Shown one piece after another: positions 55,167 to 63,188 of a stretch of 64,000 bases of DNA (position 1 is its first letter; each line of letters starts with the position of its first letter). The translations under genes were made by a program, and so were the position numbers. Source of the stretch: a bacterium BMS3Abin14 (GTDB taxonomy: Bacteria; BMS3Abin14); assembly GCA_002897695.1 (NCBI GenBank), contig BDTG01000039.1, positions 16,817 through 80,816 of the forward strand. The letters run 5' to 3'. The notes under the pieces are model-generated. The model was not told where the DNA came from and searched no databases. It saw nothing but the letters and a program-made list of their open reading frames with translations.

Positions 55167-55580
55167 TCACCCCCAGCCGGAAAACGTCACCGGCAACCGG
55201 GCGAGAACGAAATTCAGCACCTCTTCAGCCGCGTCCAAAGCCTCCTGCGCATCTTTCCTTGCCGGCTCCAGAACATCTCCCGGGTAGCGAAATGCAATCG
55301 CGTAAGGCGTCAGCAAATCGGCAATATCCATCAACTCCGCAAAGGTCGGGTCGCTCTGCATGCATTGCTCAACCAGCACGGAAAGAGCATGGACTTTCTG
55401 GAAAGGTGTATCTTTAAGGGTCAGATACGCTTTGAAGGCCTTTTCCGCCGTCTGCTGACAGTGGTAGACAGCCGTATCAAGCAAAGGCGGGTCAGCGATG
55501 AAAAGTTGTCCGGCGGAACGGAGATCGTGTTCCGCCCTCACCAGCCACTGCCGGATTTCATGGACTTTTGGATCAACCAT
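55167..55580 (-). CDS. HEPN-domain protein (RYPGD type)
   Basis: 137 residues from ATG 55580. The HEPN helices are visible as WLVRAEHDLRSAGQL, YHCQQTAEKAFKAYLTL and TPYAIAFRYPGDV. The RX4HXY RNase site is absent, so it belongs to the branch thought to act with a nucleotidyltransferase of unknown target. It overlaps its nucleotidyltransferase partner by eight bases. Confidence 0.88.
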   Translation of the reverse strand: MVDPKVHEIRQWLVRAEHDLRSAGQLFIADPPLLDTAVYHCQQTAEKAFKAYLTLKDTPFQKVHALSVLVEQCMQSDPTFAELMDIADLLTPYAIAFRYPGDVLEPARKDAQEALDAAEEVLNFVLARLPVTFSGWG

Positions 55581-55893
55581 GAAGGACCTTTCCCTCTTCC
55601 ATGACTTTTCTGGCCAGCGAGGTGACCACTTGTCTGCTGCGCTCCACTTCATCATGGGTCTGGACCACCACGTCGACAGGAACACCTATGCCGCGCAAAG
55701 AACGGTAGATCCCCCTGGCACGGCGATAGGCAGGCTGGTCCGAGGAGTGGATAACGACAAACAGATCAAGGTCGCTGTCCACAGTAGGCTGCCCCCAGGC
55801 ATATGAACCAAAGAGAACAATCTTCACCGGATGGACGGCTTCAACAATCCGGCGTGTGATCTCATTGAGTATCTCGGGACTGAATTCTTTCAT
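55573..55893 (-). CDS. minimal nucleotidyltransferase (HEPN partner)
   Basis: 106 residues. KIVLFGSYAWGQPTVDSDLDLFVV provides GS-x10-D-x-D; VPVDVVVQTHDEVE supplies the third acidic strand. It forms the NT half of a HEPN-MNT pair, whose partner starts eight bases before this gene's stop. ATG 55893; ribosome site not strong. Confidence 0.88.
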   Translation of the reverse strand: MKEFSPEILNEITRRIVEAVHPVKIVLFGSYAWGQPTVDSDLDLFVVIHSSDQPAYRRARGIYRSLRGIGVPVDVVVQTHDEVERSRQVVTSLARKVMEEGKVLHG

Positions 55894-56018: not shown

Positions 56019-56140
56019 TTGGTTCATCCGGTTAATGCGTACCTTATTATTTTTCTGTCATTGCGAGCCTGAGTGAAACCGCGGCGCGGCAATCTCATGC
56101 GGCCTGTCGCGGCAAAGTTCGAAGAACGAAGACGGAAGCT
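56019..56140. repeat. MITE-derived sequence (one end plus palindromic interior)
   Basis: GGTTCATCCGGTTAATGCG-TACCTTATTA, then TCATTGCGAGCCTGAGTG and GCGGCAATC, ending near GTTCGAAGAACGAAGACGG. It overwrites the 3' end of the toxin gene at 56024-56350 and supplies its stop codon. Confidence 0.7.
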
Positions 56141-56350
56141 AAAAAGATCACCATCAAGGTCAAAAACCACCCGATAATCGCCGATTCTGAATCGAAAGGT
56201 TCCCAGAGCAGGGTTGGTTAACCGTTTGGAATGTTTTAACGGATCTGCCGCAAATCGAAGAAGCGCTTTACCTATGCGTGCTTTGACACTCTGATCAAGT
56301 TTTTGAATATCCTTGACTGCTCGCCGGGTGTAGACCAGGCCAAAGCTCAT
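56024..56350 (-). pseudogene. RelE/ParE-like toxin whose C-terminus has been replaced by a repeat
   Basis: The first 65-68 residues look normal (LVYTRRAVKDIQKLDQSVKARIGKALL; TFRFRIGDYRVVFDLDGDL). The expected final strand and H-x3-Y/R ending (about 15-20 residues) are missing; instead the frame runs into MITE-type sequence (FAATGRMRLPRRG..., QARND) and ends at a TGA inside the MITE end. The product would be 108 residues with an artificial tail. It overlaps the antitoxin by four bases. Probably inactive. Confidence 0.7.
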
Positions 56351-56547
56351 TGCCCGAAAACTTCATCATGGCTCCTGGTCCGACCATTCCCGTAATCAGC
56401 CCTGGCCTCCCTGATGCTCGTTAGATATTCCGGGCAGGTAGCAGCGAGCAGGTCTTCAAGAAAATCTTCCCGATCCTTCCTTTTCATCTTCTTGACTGCC
56501 GCAATGATTTTTTCGGTATCGATTTCCATTTTCAGCGCTGTGGACAT
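56347..56547 (-). CDS. RelB-like antitoxin
   Basis: 66 residues from ATG 56547. ALKMEIDTEKIIAAVKKMKRKDREDFLEDLLAATCPEYLTSI...REARADYGNGRTRSHDEVF-like sequence resembles small antitoxins with a dimerising N-terminus and a toxin-binding tail ending in SHDEVFG. Its toxin follows with a four-base overlap. The first 24 codons and 74 bases upstream recur at 58684-58830. Confidence 0.75.
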   Translation of the reverse strand: MSTALKMEIDTEKIIAAVKKMKRKDREDFLEDLLAATCPEYLTSIREARADYGNGRTRSHDEVFGQ

Positions 56548-56621
56548 GATCGACCCCCGCTTTTGATACTTTCCAGAAATAATCCTCTCACAATCTACAA
56601 GAACTTTCGATCCCAGGCAAG
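56475..56621 (-). repeat. 147-bp duplicated antitoxin leader, copy 1
   Basis: Matches 58684-58830 without gaps at about seven mismatches. It spans the 5' leader and first 24 codons of the antitoxin gene. Confidence 0.9.
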
Positions 56622-57148
56622 AGACAGGCGAGGGGCTAGAGGCTATGGGTAATAGCACAGTCCAGAACCTGAATCTTTTTAGCCGCCAGACTGGAGCCCG
56701 GGGCGAGATCGCGTCATCCGGTCCCTATTCGCGATGACATCTTTTCTCCGTTGGACATTGGACCTTGGACGTTGGACGTTTTTATAGCCCCTCGCCCAAG
56801 TTGCTGCTCGTCCTTGTTGCCCTGGATGAAAGTGAACTTTGATCCAGGGTGTAGGATGATGACTTTGAAAAAAGTCATCGACGCGCCCACTGAGGGGCGC
56901 CCAAATCAAAGATTTGTGAGGAAAGTGAAAATGACACTTTTCGCTTTCCGTGGAGTAAAAAGCCATCAATGGACTTTTTACGCCCCTATCAACGGAGAAA
57001 TCAGCCGATTTCAAGGAAATCCCGCTCCTGTCAGGGAGCGGTTGGGTGAGGGACGGAATCGTTCCGGTGTTTGCCTTATCCCCTTCATCCACTCCACCTG
57101 CCACGTCGAAGTCACCGAAATGTGTGACGAAGACGGGTCCCTGTTGAA
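56548..57148. repeat. spacer with family A repeat, heptad array and CACCTGCCACGTCGAAG repeat
   Basis: 56751-56778 is TTGGACA-TTGGACC-TTGGACG-TTGGACG. 56858-56985 is a family A unit in inverted orientation. 57081-57150 is a 70-bp repeat also at 60783-60852. No gene seen in between. Confidence 0.7.
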
Positions 57149-57550
57149 TCAGCCTTTGCATCCGCTTTTTCCCATGCTGTTCAACCAGGTCTGCAGCAAA
57201 GCAGCGTAACCGGCCAGGCGGGAGAAGATCTTCCGGGCAAGTTCTTCGTTGTAGGTGTGGACGGTAAGGTTTCTGTCATCGGCCATCTCCAGGGCCAGGC
57301 GGACCTGGTCTTCGGTGAGTAAGCCGACCTGCAGACATGCGCGCATTACCCCCTTTGGCGAACCCACCTCCAGGCCCTCTCTTTCCCTCAATAATAGTTG
57401 AGCCGCTTTCCATGTCGCCTCGAACGTGTATTCGAAGCGCTGTATCGCGGCATCCCTGACAACATTGTCGCCGGCGTCATCCAGCGGAAGCTCACAGAAT
57501 GTCGCAAGCGCCTTATCGGCTACCTGTAAACGCTCCTTTAAACGGTCCAT
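57149..57550 (-). CDS. HI0074-type HEPN protein (nucleotidyltransferase substrate-binding), RX4HXY present
   Basis: 133 residues. RFEYTFEATWKAAQLLL and GVMRACLQVGLL are HI0074 helices; ADDRNLTVHTYNEELARKIF contains RX4HXY (RNLTVHTY), the HEPN RNase site and AMPylated tyrosine. Its nucleotidyltransferase partner overlaps by 13 bases upstream. Confidence 0.9.
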   Translation of the reverse strand: MDRLKERLQVADKALATFCELPLDDAGDNVVRDAAIQRFEYTFEATWKAAQLLLREREGLEVGSPKGVMRACLQVGLLTEDQVRLALEMADDRNLTVHTYNEELARKIFSRLAGYAALLQTWLNSMGKSGCKG

Positions 57551-57855
57551 ATGATACCCTCCGCGAGTACGCGTTCTCTGAAGGCCTCATCCGTTTGCGA
57601 AAGATCAACCAATTCCACACTGAACGGCACATAGCTCTCCTGGAGAGATTCCCGAATCCGGCTCAAAAGTCCCGCCGGAAGTTCTCTCACCGGCAGAACG
57701 GCGACATCGATATCAGAGGCCCTTCCAGCCTTGCCCGTAGCGTGCGACCCGAAGAGAAAAACCTGGGCGTCATGCCCCAGCAACCCTTTCAATACAAGGC
57801 GCTTGACCTGGTCCAGGTCGTGCTCAATATTTTTTCCGGAGTCTTTTTTACGCAT
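57538..57855 (-). CDS. nucleotidyltransferase (HI0073/MNT type)
   Basis: 105 residues. QVFLFGSHATGKAGRASDIDVAVLP gives GS-x10-D-x-D; VPFSVELVDLSQ the third acidic strand. It pairs with the HI0074-type protein. Confidence 0.9.
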   Translation of the reverse strand: MRKKDSGKNIEHDLDQVKRLVLKGLLGHDAQVFLFGSHATGKAGRASDIDVAVLPVRELPAGLLSRIRESLQESYVPFSVELVDLSQTDEAFRERVLAEGIIWTV

Positions 57856-57955
57856 GGCTTCCGCCTTTATCCGCGGTGAATGACTTTAAGGCTTATTGGC
57901 CGCTGATGCACACTGATAGTTCTAAACCTGGGAACAGGAATGGATCGCCATCAAT

Positions 57956-58348
57956 TTACCTGGTCAGTAACGCGTCCGCTTCATCCATGGCCTCGGCAGC
58001 GAAACGCGCCAGATCTCGGGCATCTTCCAGGGACGGGGCTCCGTTGGGCAACAGACCAGACTCGGTGGGATAACGTGAGTCTATATACAGTTTGTTGAGC
58101 AGACTCAGGGTATCCTCATCCCAGTCTATGGAATAATCCCGCTCCGCAGCAGCTTTCAATGTCAGCAAACTGTGGGTTTTTCCGACCTCAATATCAATCT
58201 CCTCCAGGAGCGCCTTCAGGCATTTCTCGACACACTGCTGCGCATGGAAAGCGACTACTGCCGCCAGGTTCGGCTTGTCAAGAATGGCGTTAATGGTTTC
58301 GAGATCGGCCCTGGCCGATCTGAGCCAGTCGGTGGTAACGGCTTTCAC
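57956..58348 (-). CDS. HEPN-domain protein (RYP type)
   Basis: 130 residues. WLRSARADLETINAIL, FHAQQCVEKCLKALLEE, KTHSLLTLKA and LYIDSRYPTESGL are HEPN features; there is no RX4HXY. Overlaps its nucleotidyltransferase by four bases. Confidence 0.9.
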   Translation of the reverse strand: MKAVTTDWLRSARADLETINAILDKPNLAAVVAFHAQQCVEKCLKALLEEIDIEVGKTHSLLTLKAAAERDYSIDWDEDTLSLLNKLYIDSRYPTESGLLPNGAPSLEDARDLARFAAEAMDEADALLTR

Positions 58349-58677
58349 GAGAGCTCGACCCCTTCACGCAGCGCCCGGCGGACAAAGAGGCTCCCGCCCG
58401 CCTTGATTTTTTCGAACTCAGAACGAGTATAAACCAGCAGATCGATGGGATATCTCTTTTCAATTTCCCGTATGGCGCGGCTGACTTGGAGGTAATTGGT
58501 GCAACTCTCCCGGAAGTTCCCCGGCGAAGTATCCTGGTCAAGAACAACGATCAGGTCGATATCGCTGTCGGGACCGGCCGTGCCCGATGCCTCGGAACCA
58601 AACAGAATAATTTTGTCGATCCCGCCGGATGACTTGATTTTTTCCACCAGTTCTTTTTTTACTCCATCAGTCAGCAT
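58345..58677 (-). CDS. minimal nucleotidyltransferase (HEPN partner)
   Basis: 110 residues. KIILFGSEASGTAGPDSDIDLIVVLD provides GS-x10-D-x-D; YPIDLLVYTRSEFE the third acid. Its ATG lies 11 bases inside a short frame derived from the duplicated antitoxin leader (58667-58756), so it may be translated by coupling. Confidence 0.9.
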   Translation of the reverse strand: MLTDGVKKELVEKIKSSGGIDKIILFGSEASGTAGPDSDIDLIVVLDQDTSPGNFRESCTNYLQVSRAIREIEKRYPIDLLVYTRSEFEKIKAGGSLFVRRALREGVELS

Positions 58678-58756
58678 ATCTTACCTTCCTTTTCACCTTC
58701 TTGACTGCCGCAATGATTTTTTCGGTATCGATTTCCATTTTCAGCGCTGTGGACAT
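58667..58756 (-). pseudogene. 29-codon antitoxin-derived leader frame in front of the nucleotidyltransferase
   Basis: Starts like the antitoxin at 56547 (ALKMEIDTEKIIAAVKK), then diverges to VKRKVRYAD and a TGA at 58667. It ends inside the nucleotidyltransferase start (ATG 58677). The gene is truncated after about 24 codons by the junction of the duplication. Confidence 0.75.
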
Positions 58757-58830
58757 GATCGACCCCCGCTTTTTGTACACTTCAGAAATAGTCCTCTCAC
58801 AATCTACAAGAACTTTCGATCCCAGGCAAG
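58684..58830 (-). repeat. 147-bp duplicated antitoxin leader, copy 2
   Basis: Gap-free match (about 140 of 147) to 56475-56621. Confidence 0.9.
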
Positions 58831-58867
58831 GCACAGAGGGTTATCCGCGTCCATCCGCGGCGCTGGG

Positions 58868-58888
58868 GTTTGAGGTTTGAGGTTTGAA
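58868..58888 (+). repeat. heptad array GTTTGAG-GTTTGAG-GTTTGAA
   Basis: Three 7-bp units, followed by GGAACCA-GGAACCA at 58899-58912. Confidence 0.9.
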
Positions 58889-59032
58889 GTTAAGACATGG
58901 AACCAGGAACCAGAAAAGGTAAGCGGAAGGGCGGCAACCTCAAACTTCAAACTCTCAAACCTCAAACTCGCCCTTACCGCTTACAGCCCGCATTTCCTGG
59001 CCGCCGGTACACGCGGGGGTCCCTGGTTCCGG

Positions 59033-60253
59033 TCAATACAGGAACCCGAAGACCCAAAGCGGTATCTTTCTTCCAAACCCATTTTCCATATCATCCACGG
59101 CCAGAAAGCTGTTTTCAATGTCCTTTATCTGATCAAACCCCTTGTTTCTGCCACCAATTTCAAAGAGGTATGCATCGTCAACCAGAAAGTCTCCTTGCCG
59201 CGGCGCCTTGAGCACGTGCCCGGTGCTGAGCATATTCAGAAAAAAAGTCTCCCGGATGGTTCCCGTGTCAGAGTCCGGTGCAAAGGCATGGATAAGGTTG
59301 GTGTTGTTAAGAAAAATCTTTTCCGGCTTCTCAAACCCACGGAGTCCCTTTCCGGAGCGACTCAGCCCCAGAACCAAACCACAGTCTTCCAGATATTTCA
59401 GATAGGTCTTGAGTGTGCGCTGATCGCCGACATCCGTCAGCTTTGTCAATTTATTAAAATCGGGAACAAATGGGACAGTCGCGGAAATGACCCGCAAAAG
59501 CGCCGCAATCTTTTTAACACTGTTTCCGGTCAGAGCGGGCTGAACAGCAATAAGGTCGCTCTCAATGGTCGTGTGCAGGTTCTGATTGAGCAGTTGATAA
59601 AACAGGGCTTCATCCCGATCCTCAAAATAGAATGGGTAATAGCCATGTTTGAGATAGGCCTTGAACAGCGCCAGGACCTTTTTCTCACGAAGTTTGTCGA
59701 CAATCTCGTGTGTTATGCGAACATGATCGCTTAATATATCCTCGAGGGTGCAGGAAGGCAGCCCAACATCGAGGGATATTTCGATATATTCCCGAAAGGA
59801 CATGCCCCACATTCGAATCTGCAAGGCTCTGCGGCTCAAATCATGGCTGCCTTTATAAATTTCCAGGGCTGAGCTTCCCGAGGCCAGAACGTTGAGCCCG
59901 GCAAAGGTATCGGTGATGGACTTGAGTTCCATGGACCACTGCGGATATTTGTGTATTTCATCAAAACATATGGTTTTACCACCGCGGTTGACGAACTGTT
60001 CAGCGATCTCGTACAGGCTCCGGGATCCAATGAGAAAATGATCCGCCTGAACATACAGGATGGTCTCACTCAATCTGTCCTGCCCACCCACATCCAGGAG
60101 ATGCTGGACCATGGCTGTGGTTTTACCTATGCCCCTCTGCCCCAGGATGACACACAATCTTCGGGACAAGTCGTGCTCCCGCAGCAAGTATCGCCTGTAG
60201 GGTCTGTTAAAAACCGTCAACTGGGTCTGGCTGAGCCGATAAAGATTTTCCAT
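59033..60253 (-). CDS. AAA ATPase of the DUF4143-related group
   Basis: 406 residues from ATG 60253. It has Walker A LGQRGIGKTTAMVQHLL, a Walker B ICFDEIHKYPQWSMEL, LASGSSALEIYKGSHDLSRRA and a middle winged-helix part (FNKLTKLTDVGDQRTLKTYLKYLED), and the final segment GDFLVDDAYLFEIGGRNKG. The C-terminal nuclease-like E-x-G-G-x-K strand is seen. Function unknown; such ATPases are common in accessory islands. Confidence 0.85.
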   Translation of the reverse strand: MENLYRLSQTQLTVFNRPYRRYLLREHDLSRRLCVILGQRGIGKTTAMVQHLLDVGGQDRLSETILYVQADHFLIGSRSLYEIAEQFVNRGGKTICFDEIHKYPQWSMELKSITDTFAGLNVLASGSSALEIYKGSHDLSRRALQIRMWGMSFREYIEISLDVGLPSCTLEDILSDHVRITHEIVDKLREKKVLALFKAYLKHGYYPFYFEDRDEALFYQLLNQNLHTTIESDLIAVQPALTGNSVKKIAALLRVISATVPFVPDFNKLTKLTDVGDQRTLKTYLKYLEDCGLVLGLSRSGKGLRGFEKPEKIFLNNTNLIHAFAPDSDTGTIRETFFLNMLSTGHVLKAPRQGDFLVDDAYLFEIGGRNKGFDQIKDIENSFLAVDDMENGFGRKIPLWVFGFLY

Positions 60254-60380
60254 AAAGAATCCTTTTACATGGGATCGCATTACATATTATTCAAATAATA
60301 TTAGGAATGCAATACCATATTCCCTTATCCCTTATCCCCCGTTGAACCATCCTTCGCGCTTCGAGCTACGGCCGGCAAGC

Positions 60381-60769: not shown

Positions 60770-60782
60770 CCTTGATTCCTAT

Positions 60783-60852
60783 CCCCCTCCATCCCTTCAC
60801 TTGCCACGTCGTAGTCACCGATTTGTGTGACAAAGGCAGGTCCCTGCTGAAT
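60783..60852. repeat. 70-bp repeat (CACTTGCCACGTCG family)
   Basis: Direct copy of 57081-57150. It is followed by TTGCTTCGCATCG...ACAAGCGCAATGACACC (about 60870-60932), related to the MITE interior. Confidence 0.75.
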
Positions 60853-60986
60853 CCAGGCTGTGCACGAGATTGCTTCGCATCGTATCGGCTTCCACCTTCG
60901 CGTAAAGCTTCGGCGGACAAGCGCAATGACACCTTTCCCCCATGCGCCCACGCTCCGCGTCCTCGTGTCTGCCTTTTCGCCCTTCC

Positions 60987-62470: not shown

Positions 62471-62602
62471 AAGGGGGGTCCCCGCCTTCTCCAGTGAGGT
62501 GCGGATATCACCGACCTGGTAGTCTAAAAAGCGTTCAAGCACTGACTCCGGCTGCTGTTTGATAATGTAGATGCAGATGTTGGTGTCGAGCATCAGCTTC
62601 AT
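62471..62602 (-). pseudogene. vapC remnant with an internal deletion
   Basis: Starts MKLMLDTNICIYIIKQQPES, the normal PIN-domain N-terminus with its Asp. After VGDI (residue 33) the frame jumps to RTSLEKAGTPL, which resembles the later I-R-x-x-L-E-x-x-G-T-P-(I/L)-G segment of VapC, then continues into repeats (RSSDFRRR...). Middle and C-terminal parts are missing. The ATG overlaps the vapB stop. Confidence 0.65.
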
Positions 62603-62829
62603 CAGAAGCTCTCCCGCTTGTCAGGTTCCGGTTGGGATCGTTCGGACATGAAGTCCCGGGAAAACTTTTTCAGGCTGCCGAAAAGGACATCCCAGGAATT
62701 ACTGCGGGGAATGAGATATACGACATGGCCGCTTTTCTTGATAAAGACTTCAGTGTCGTCAAACCGGAATTCCTTAGGCAGGCGTACCGCCTGACTTTGA
62801 CCATTTTTGAAGATTTTCGCTGTTTTCAT
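62602..62829 (-). CDS. vapB: VapB-type antitoxin (AbrB fold)
   Basis: 75 residues from ATG 62829. MKTAKIFKNGQSQAVRLPKEFRFDDTEVFIKKSGHVVYLIP is the swapped-hairpin AbrB DNA-binding domain; the C-terminal tail (LFGSLKKFSRDFMSER) binds VapC. The gene looks intact although vapC is decayed. Confidence 0.92.
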   Translation of the reverse strand: MKTAKIFKNGQSQAVRLPKEFRFDDTEVFIKKSGHVVYLIPRSNSWDVLFGSLKKFSRDFMSERSQPEPDKRESF

Positions 62830-63188
62830 TCTACACCTCCACACGCAATTAAAGTATATACTTAACATATATACTTTGATGGGTGTCATGGCAAGGAGAA
62901 AAGAAGGTTTGGGAATTTACCTCAAACTTTCCTTTTCCCCACGCTACCGCCATCAGGGTGAAAAGCTTCATCCTGGAAGCAATGATTTTAAACCTTATTT
63001 ACCGCTGATTTTCGCTGATAAACCTAACTGCAATCCATTACCCAAGATGCCGTTGATCCTTGGTGCCCGGGATTAAAGGCCACTTTCATCCAGGGCTCAA
63101 GGGAGGGGAAGTTCTTAAGATTGGCTGTCTTTCCCGTTGCCTATAGCCCATCGCCTATCGCCTCTAGCCTGCTCTTTTCCCGTAAAAG
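62830..63188. repeat. repeat-rich spacer between vapB and the RfaH-like gene
   Basis: 62969-63020 is the TGATTTTAAACCTTATTTACC-type family; 63139-63171 is GCCTATA-GCCCATC-GCCTATC-GCCTCTA. No gene seen. Confidence 0.6.

Follow-up and report, generated by a model that had tools for sequence, protein, structure and literature searches.

How a gene pair encoding a nucleotidyltransferase (NT) and a HEPN protein comes to lie directly behind the start of another toxin-antitoxin (TA) system, and whether that start could drive its expression, is the question raised by this locus. We analysed a stretch of 64,000 nt (hereafter the window), for which the initial annotation had described a gap-free recurrence of 147 bp (56475-56621 and 58684-58830) with about seven mismatches. 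Repeat search and ungapped comparison found exactly seven mismatches over this core stretch, but the end of the repeat had to be moved, as it reaches 6 nt further in the 5' direction. The whole repeat lies on the minus strand and extends over 153 nt, from 56475 to 56627 (copy 1) and from 58684 to 58836 (copy 2), without gaps, with 94% identity, 9 mismatches, a spacing of 2209 and a longest identical run of 77 nt. It covers the 80 nt upstream of an antitoxin ATG (56547) and antitoxin codons 1-24, and its 5' edge is located just upstream of the antitoxin's promoter-like sequence. Copy 1 belongs to the intact antitoxin gene, of which it holds the promoter-like region, the 5' leader and codons 1-24, and copy 2 is fused in front of an NT gene, NT2. 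We thereby confirmed that the duplication in front of the NT-HEPN genes is real. A chance repeat is ruled out by the comparison of one copy with the other (BLAST E ~4e-62 within the window), and a dispersed repeat is ruled out by a genome search that found these 2 copies and no third one, unlike the true dispersed repeats nearby. The mismatches are unevenly distributed: 8 of the 9 precede the ATG, within 80 nt and for the most part between the promoter-like site and the Shine-Dalgarno sequence, and the 73 nt of coding sequence have 1 (Fisher p 0.035). This skew is weak evidence, the coding part of copy 1 being constrained anyway.

The antitoxin gene of copy 1 (66 aa, 56347-56547, minus strand) is located directly upstream of a toxin gene (108 aa, 56024-56350, minus strand), with an overlap of 4 nt, and the same pairing was found in other families of the domain, where homologues of the antitoxin stand beside ParE-like toxins. 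The toxin belongs to the ParE/RelE superfamily: it matched PF05016 ParE_toxin (E 1.3e-7; 32.5 bits, cut-off 23), and by structure match it resembles RelE structures. The antitoxin, which had been called RelB-like, itself matched no Pfam or NCBIfam family, and no DNA-binding family was recognised. Its single-sequence model (pLDDT 81), in which two helices come after 10 unstructured residues, matched no PDB structure significantly, and the viral relatives of the antitoxin were limited to two weak C-terminal matches. The last ~30 codons of the toxin (56021-56102) consist of a repeat that is dispersed over many sites of the genome, and the C-terminus of the toxin may have been replaced by a repeat insertion.

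Read 5' to 3' on the minus strand, the island begins with a coiled-coil gene (60769-60413) and an AAA ATPase gene (60280-59033), followed by copy 2, NT2, HEPN2, NT1 and HEPN1; then come a dispersed structured repeat (about 56992-56857), copy 1 with the antitoxin, the toxin, NT3 and HEPN3. The initial annotation identified a nucleotidyltransferase and a HEPN partner, and Pfam agrees (PF01909 and PF05168); the pair is present, but it is not single, as a second pair (57149-57855) follows on the same strand and a third (NT3-HEPN3, 55167-55893, with NT3 at 55573-55893 and HEPN3 at 55167-55685, minus strand) lies downstream of the toxin. NT1 (57538-57855, minus strand) is a second minimal nucleotidyltransferase, MntA-like (PF01909, E 6e-9; NCBIfam MntA model 54 bits, below the cut-off of 60), and HEPN1 (57149-57550, minus strand) is of the NTase_sub_bind/HI0074 type (PF08780, E 2e-26; TIGR01987). 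They carry the motifs GSHATGKAGRASDID (GSX10DXD) and RNLTVHTY (RX4HXY), respectively, and by these features NT1-HEPN1 is classed as a class I HEPN/MNT pair, a class in which PF01909 is accompanied by PF08780 or PF01934. Class II pairs are defined as a PF05168 HEPN protein without RX4HXY beside a PF01909 NT with GSX10DXD, and had been without biochemical work at the time of that paper (PMC7641770). The pair directly behind copy 2 is by its motifs of this class: NT2 (58345-58677, minus strand) is a minimal nucleotidyltransferase with PF01909 and GSX10DXD, and in HEPN2 (57956-58348, minus strand; PF05168) a motif search found neither RX4HXY nor RX4-6H. Because HEPN2 is without RX4HXY, NT2-HEPN2 cannot be called HepT/MntA by the RX4HXY criterion, but it may work like a HepT/MntA system. 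As in HepT/MntA (type VII; PMC7641770, PMC4621449), the NT gene is upstream of the HEPN gene and the two overlap, in both NT2/HEPN2 and NT1/HEPN1, and all four genes are on one strand. PADLOC gave weak candidate-defence matches, PDC-S09 for the NT genes and PDC-S01 for the AAA gene, and no named system, and no plasmid relatives were found of the block (DNA) or of NT2 (protein).

By a weight-matrix scan, an identical promoter-like site, TTGCCT-17-TAGATT, was found in copy 1 (56592-56620, minus strand) and copy 2 (58801-58829, minus strand). The matrix consisted of approximate textbook hexamer frequencies of E. coli sigma-70. In copy 2 this site outranks all others over the 355 nt that precede NT2, scoring 10.7 against 6.5 for the next best, and a score of 10.7 was attained by the best site in only 1.65% of random 133-nt minus-strand pieces. 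A strict consensus scan missed the site and gave no minus-strand promoter in either leader. In genome G004, which belongs to another genus of the same family, the corresponding sequence is TTGCTT-17-TAGATT, with one change and an 18-nt identical core, ahead of a truncated copy of the same toxin, and the 5' limit of its similarity to the window coincides to the base with that of the duplication. Since G004 keeps the core and the 17-nt spacing beside the same toxin, with homology ending at the same 5' base, the leader belongs to this TA locus, and on these alignments the promoter-like core is the most conserved part of it. Two other matches to the core motif, a second one in G004 (C40) and one in G052, stand in unrelated contexts and are not extra copies. 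That the NT-HEPN pair sits behind the promoter and leader of another TA system, as proposed in the initial annotation, is thus supported as an inference: the copy contains the best promoter-like site, which does not differ between copy 1 and copy 2 and is kept in G004.

Copy 2 ends between the Shine-Dalgarno sequence of NT2 and the NT2 ATG (58677). The sequence AAAAGGAAGG, which consists of copied lysine/arginine codons and is purine-rich, is common to both copies at the right edge of the duplication; in copy 1 it is followed by further antitoxin codons, and in copy 2 by TAAGATATG, which leads into NT2. As the predicted Shine-Dalgarno sequence of NT2, AAAAGGAAGG (58684-58693, minus strand) has a duplex energy of -9.2 kcal/mol, and the leader start has -11.1 kcal/mol, energies that place the two no further out than the lowest 3-8% of random 20-mers. 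NT2 may have carried a comparable run of purines beforehand, at which the recombination then took place. The leader frame, MSTALKMEIDTEKIIAAVKKVKRKVRYAD followed by a stop codon (58667-58756, minus strand), has 29 codons, 24 from the antitoxin and 5 from the junction, and stops 11 nt inside NT2, in agreement with the break after about 24 antitoxin codons and the end 11 bases inside the NT gene that had been reported for it. Among 29 NT homologues, a frame of at least 20 codons that ends near the NT start was present in about half; because such frames are common by chance among these homologues, the overlap alone proves little. What is special to the 29-codon frame, judged from the comparison of the copies, is that its ATG and Shine-Dalgarno sequence are inherited from a real gene. 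Translation of the nucleotidyltransferase by coupling to this frame, which the initial annotation considered likely, is possible because the leader frame overlaps the NT2 start, but NT2 could do without it, since a separate Shine-Dalgarno sequence precedes the gene. The 177-nt leader folds no better than shuffled sequences (z +1.7), and no known RNA family matched in the leader region. The genome is a draft of 49 contigs and a misassembled junction is possible, though the longest identical run at the repeat is only 77 nt.

We consider capture of a TA initiation region by the NT-HEPN block, with the captured region driving NT-HEPN expression, to be the best explanation of these results, and hold it with moderate confidence. 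A rearrangement in a changeable TA island would have left a second antitoxin initiation region upstream of the block, made up of the promoter-like site, a 5' UTR of about 38 nt, a Shine-Dalgarno sequence, an ATG and 24 codons. The break in the purine-rich lysine/arginine codons would have turned AAAAGGAAGG into the Shine-Dalgarno sequence of NT2, just before its ATG. Transcription would probably start near 58794 and run through NT2-HEPN2 and likely NT1-HEPN1, and ribosomes would translate the 29-codon leader, start at NT2 directly, or both; as the leader frame overlaps the NT2 start, translation of the two is probably linked. Against this reading, the AAA ATPase gene (59033-60280), upstream on the same strand, could supply read-through transcripts. 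The SO_3165-3166 operon has its own promoter, which is repressed by its NT antitoxin, SO_3165 (PMC4621449), whereas the initiation region here comes from a RelE/ParE-type antitoxin; by analogy, the captured promoter would also replace control by the block's own NT protein. If the copy works, it would represent a one-step takeover by a TA operon of the control region of another TA system, in which lysine/arginine codons double as a ready Shine-Dalgarno sequence. It would also give an example at the sequence level, with a defined promoter pair, of the way in which TA systems become linked in their regulation, and would place a class II HEPN/MNT pair, a kind little studied experimentally, under a borrowed promoter.

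The main rival to capture is that copy 2 is an inert relic: a second antitoxin gene would have been reduced to a stump through an insertion, a deletion or unequal recombination, and the NT-HEPN genes would be expressed by read-through or from another site. We regard this as possible rather than probable, but it stays a serious rival because the junction is seen in one genome only. A search for the junction in related genomes, as had been suggested, gave no second example in 12 genomes of the family (searches widened to the order and the phylum added none to these 12) or in about 370 others sampled with the core motif; with the junction known from one genome, the 94% identity may simply reflect a recent copy. 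In favour of a relic, the same TA locus is decaying in G004 (C57, L037 1279-1541), with the leader kept, the antitoxin deleted and the toxin truncated. In G001, of the same genus, the hflKC block is 99% identical, but the island (54.8-62.5 kb) is missing beside it: of the 54.8-62.9 kb region, nothing aligns on that contig except short repeats and a 406-nt stretch (62496-62901) located elsewhere on the contig. The region is, moreover, full of dispersed repeats. Against a relic, the promoter-like core, Shine-Dalgarno sequence, ATG and frame are all intact in copy 2, and the break falls exactly between a usable Shine-Dalgarno sequence and the NT2 ATG. The direct repeats also allow the block to be read as an excisable passenger, the repeat being the scar of its entry and not a regulatory device. 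If the two copies recombined with each other, 2,209 bp would be lost and a complete TA locus would remain, and a repeat of 153 bp with a 77-nt identical core suffices for homologous recombination. In G004 the order is coiled-coil gene, leader and toxin, with no NT-HEPN genes between them and a DUF4143 gene beyond, which resembles the empty arrangement and suggests, from one decayed relative, that the leader-antitoxin-toxin unit next to the coiled-coil gene was there first and the NT-HEPN block entered between two copies afterwards. The block showed neither a recombinase or integrase nor terminal repeats, however, and 153 bp is far above the usual length of a target-site duplication. We think this account rather unlikely; it is compatible with a regulatory effect of the repeat and overlaps the other readings, so that the degrees of confidence given here are not exclusive.

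A further proposal, made in the initial annotation, was that the RelB-like antitoxin cross-regulates the NT-HEPN pair: with its toxin, it would bind both copies and co-repress the NT-HEPN operon, thereby linking the regulation of the two TA systems. The duplication would have carried along any operator present in the 80-nt leader, type II antitoxins usually autoregulate, and a ribbon-helix-helix dimer is compatible with the model of the antitoxin. Experiments have shown cross-regulation by way of promoter motifs that resemble each other for ParE/CopA on pemIK, Axe-Txe on yefM-yoeB and MazEF on ratA, in one case between adjacent modules (PMC10305079); the likeness here is a similar sequence at two TA promoters, and the difference is that it is known from shared DNA alone. 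The specific evidence did not bear the proposal out. An operator palindrome was looked for and no inverted repeat of at least 8 nt was found in either upstream leader, the antitoxin showed neither a DNA-binding family (Pfam, NCBIfam) nor a significant structural match, and most mismatches between the copies lie in the UTR, where an operator might be. We therefore hold control by the antitoxin to be doubtful. A fuller version, which would tie two unrelated kinds of TA system to each other and in which a RelE/ParE-type antitoxin complex acts on a shared operator of its own genes and of the class II/class I HEPN/MNT operon while the truncated frame sets NT translation, appears more improbable still.

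The initial annotation knew of no described case of such an arrangement. This holds for the junction itself, which was not found in the open-access literature, but is too broad as a general statement, since TA cross-regulation (PMC10305079) and short-ORF fusion in integrons (PMC8876359) have been described. In the attI1 site of class 1 integrons, ORF-11 or ORF-18 is fused before a captured gene, and translation of the short ORF can help that of the gene (PMC8876359). Capture of the TA initiation region would give a similar layout, a short ORF with its own Shine-Dalgarno sequence behind a promoter, for which the joined gene supplies the stop codon; unlike ORF-11/ORF-18, the short ORF here derives from the beginning of an antitoxin gene, NT2 is preceded by a separate Shine-Dalgarno sequence, and no integrase gene was found beside the repeat among the genes examined. 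The toiL upstream ORF likewise precedes a TA operon, topAI-yjhQ, where it acts by ribosome stalling and a repressive hairpin (PMC12121999); the leader frame may also set translation, but its leader, in contrast, lacks folding beyond that of shuffled sequence. On these comparisons, promoter/leader capture is a type of event already on record, of which the junction is most likely a new local form.

Several other elements were observed in the island and its relatives. In G001 (L075 6145-7853), two genes whose translations resemble an AbiEi/AbiEii pair lie between the DUF4143 gene and hflKC, and are absent from that place in the window. The dispersed repeat at 56850-56999 is about 140-170 nt long and folds into five hairpins in a row on either strand (z -6.6 and -7.1), with no Rfam family; more than 40 copies were found in a genome of the same genus, and it occurs in 10 of the 11 other family genomes searched, some copies having an extra hairpin. 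A 74-nt repeat is present at two places in the island (57077-57150 and 60780-60853, 81% alike), and G004 (L037 2110-2350) carries a tandem array of about six units related to it (GCCACGGCGTAGTCACTGATTTGTATGACGAAGAC). The interval that separates copy 2 from the AAA gene contains GTTTGAGGTTTGA units arranged as nested inverted repeats (58868-58967); a 191-nt stretch with these repeats folds moderately better than shuffled sequences (z -2.2) and could affect read-through.
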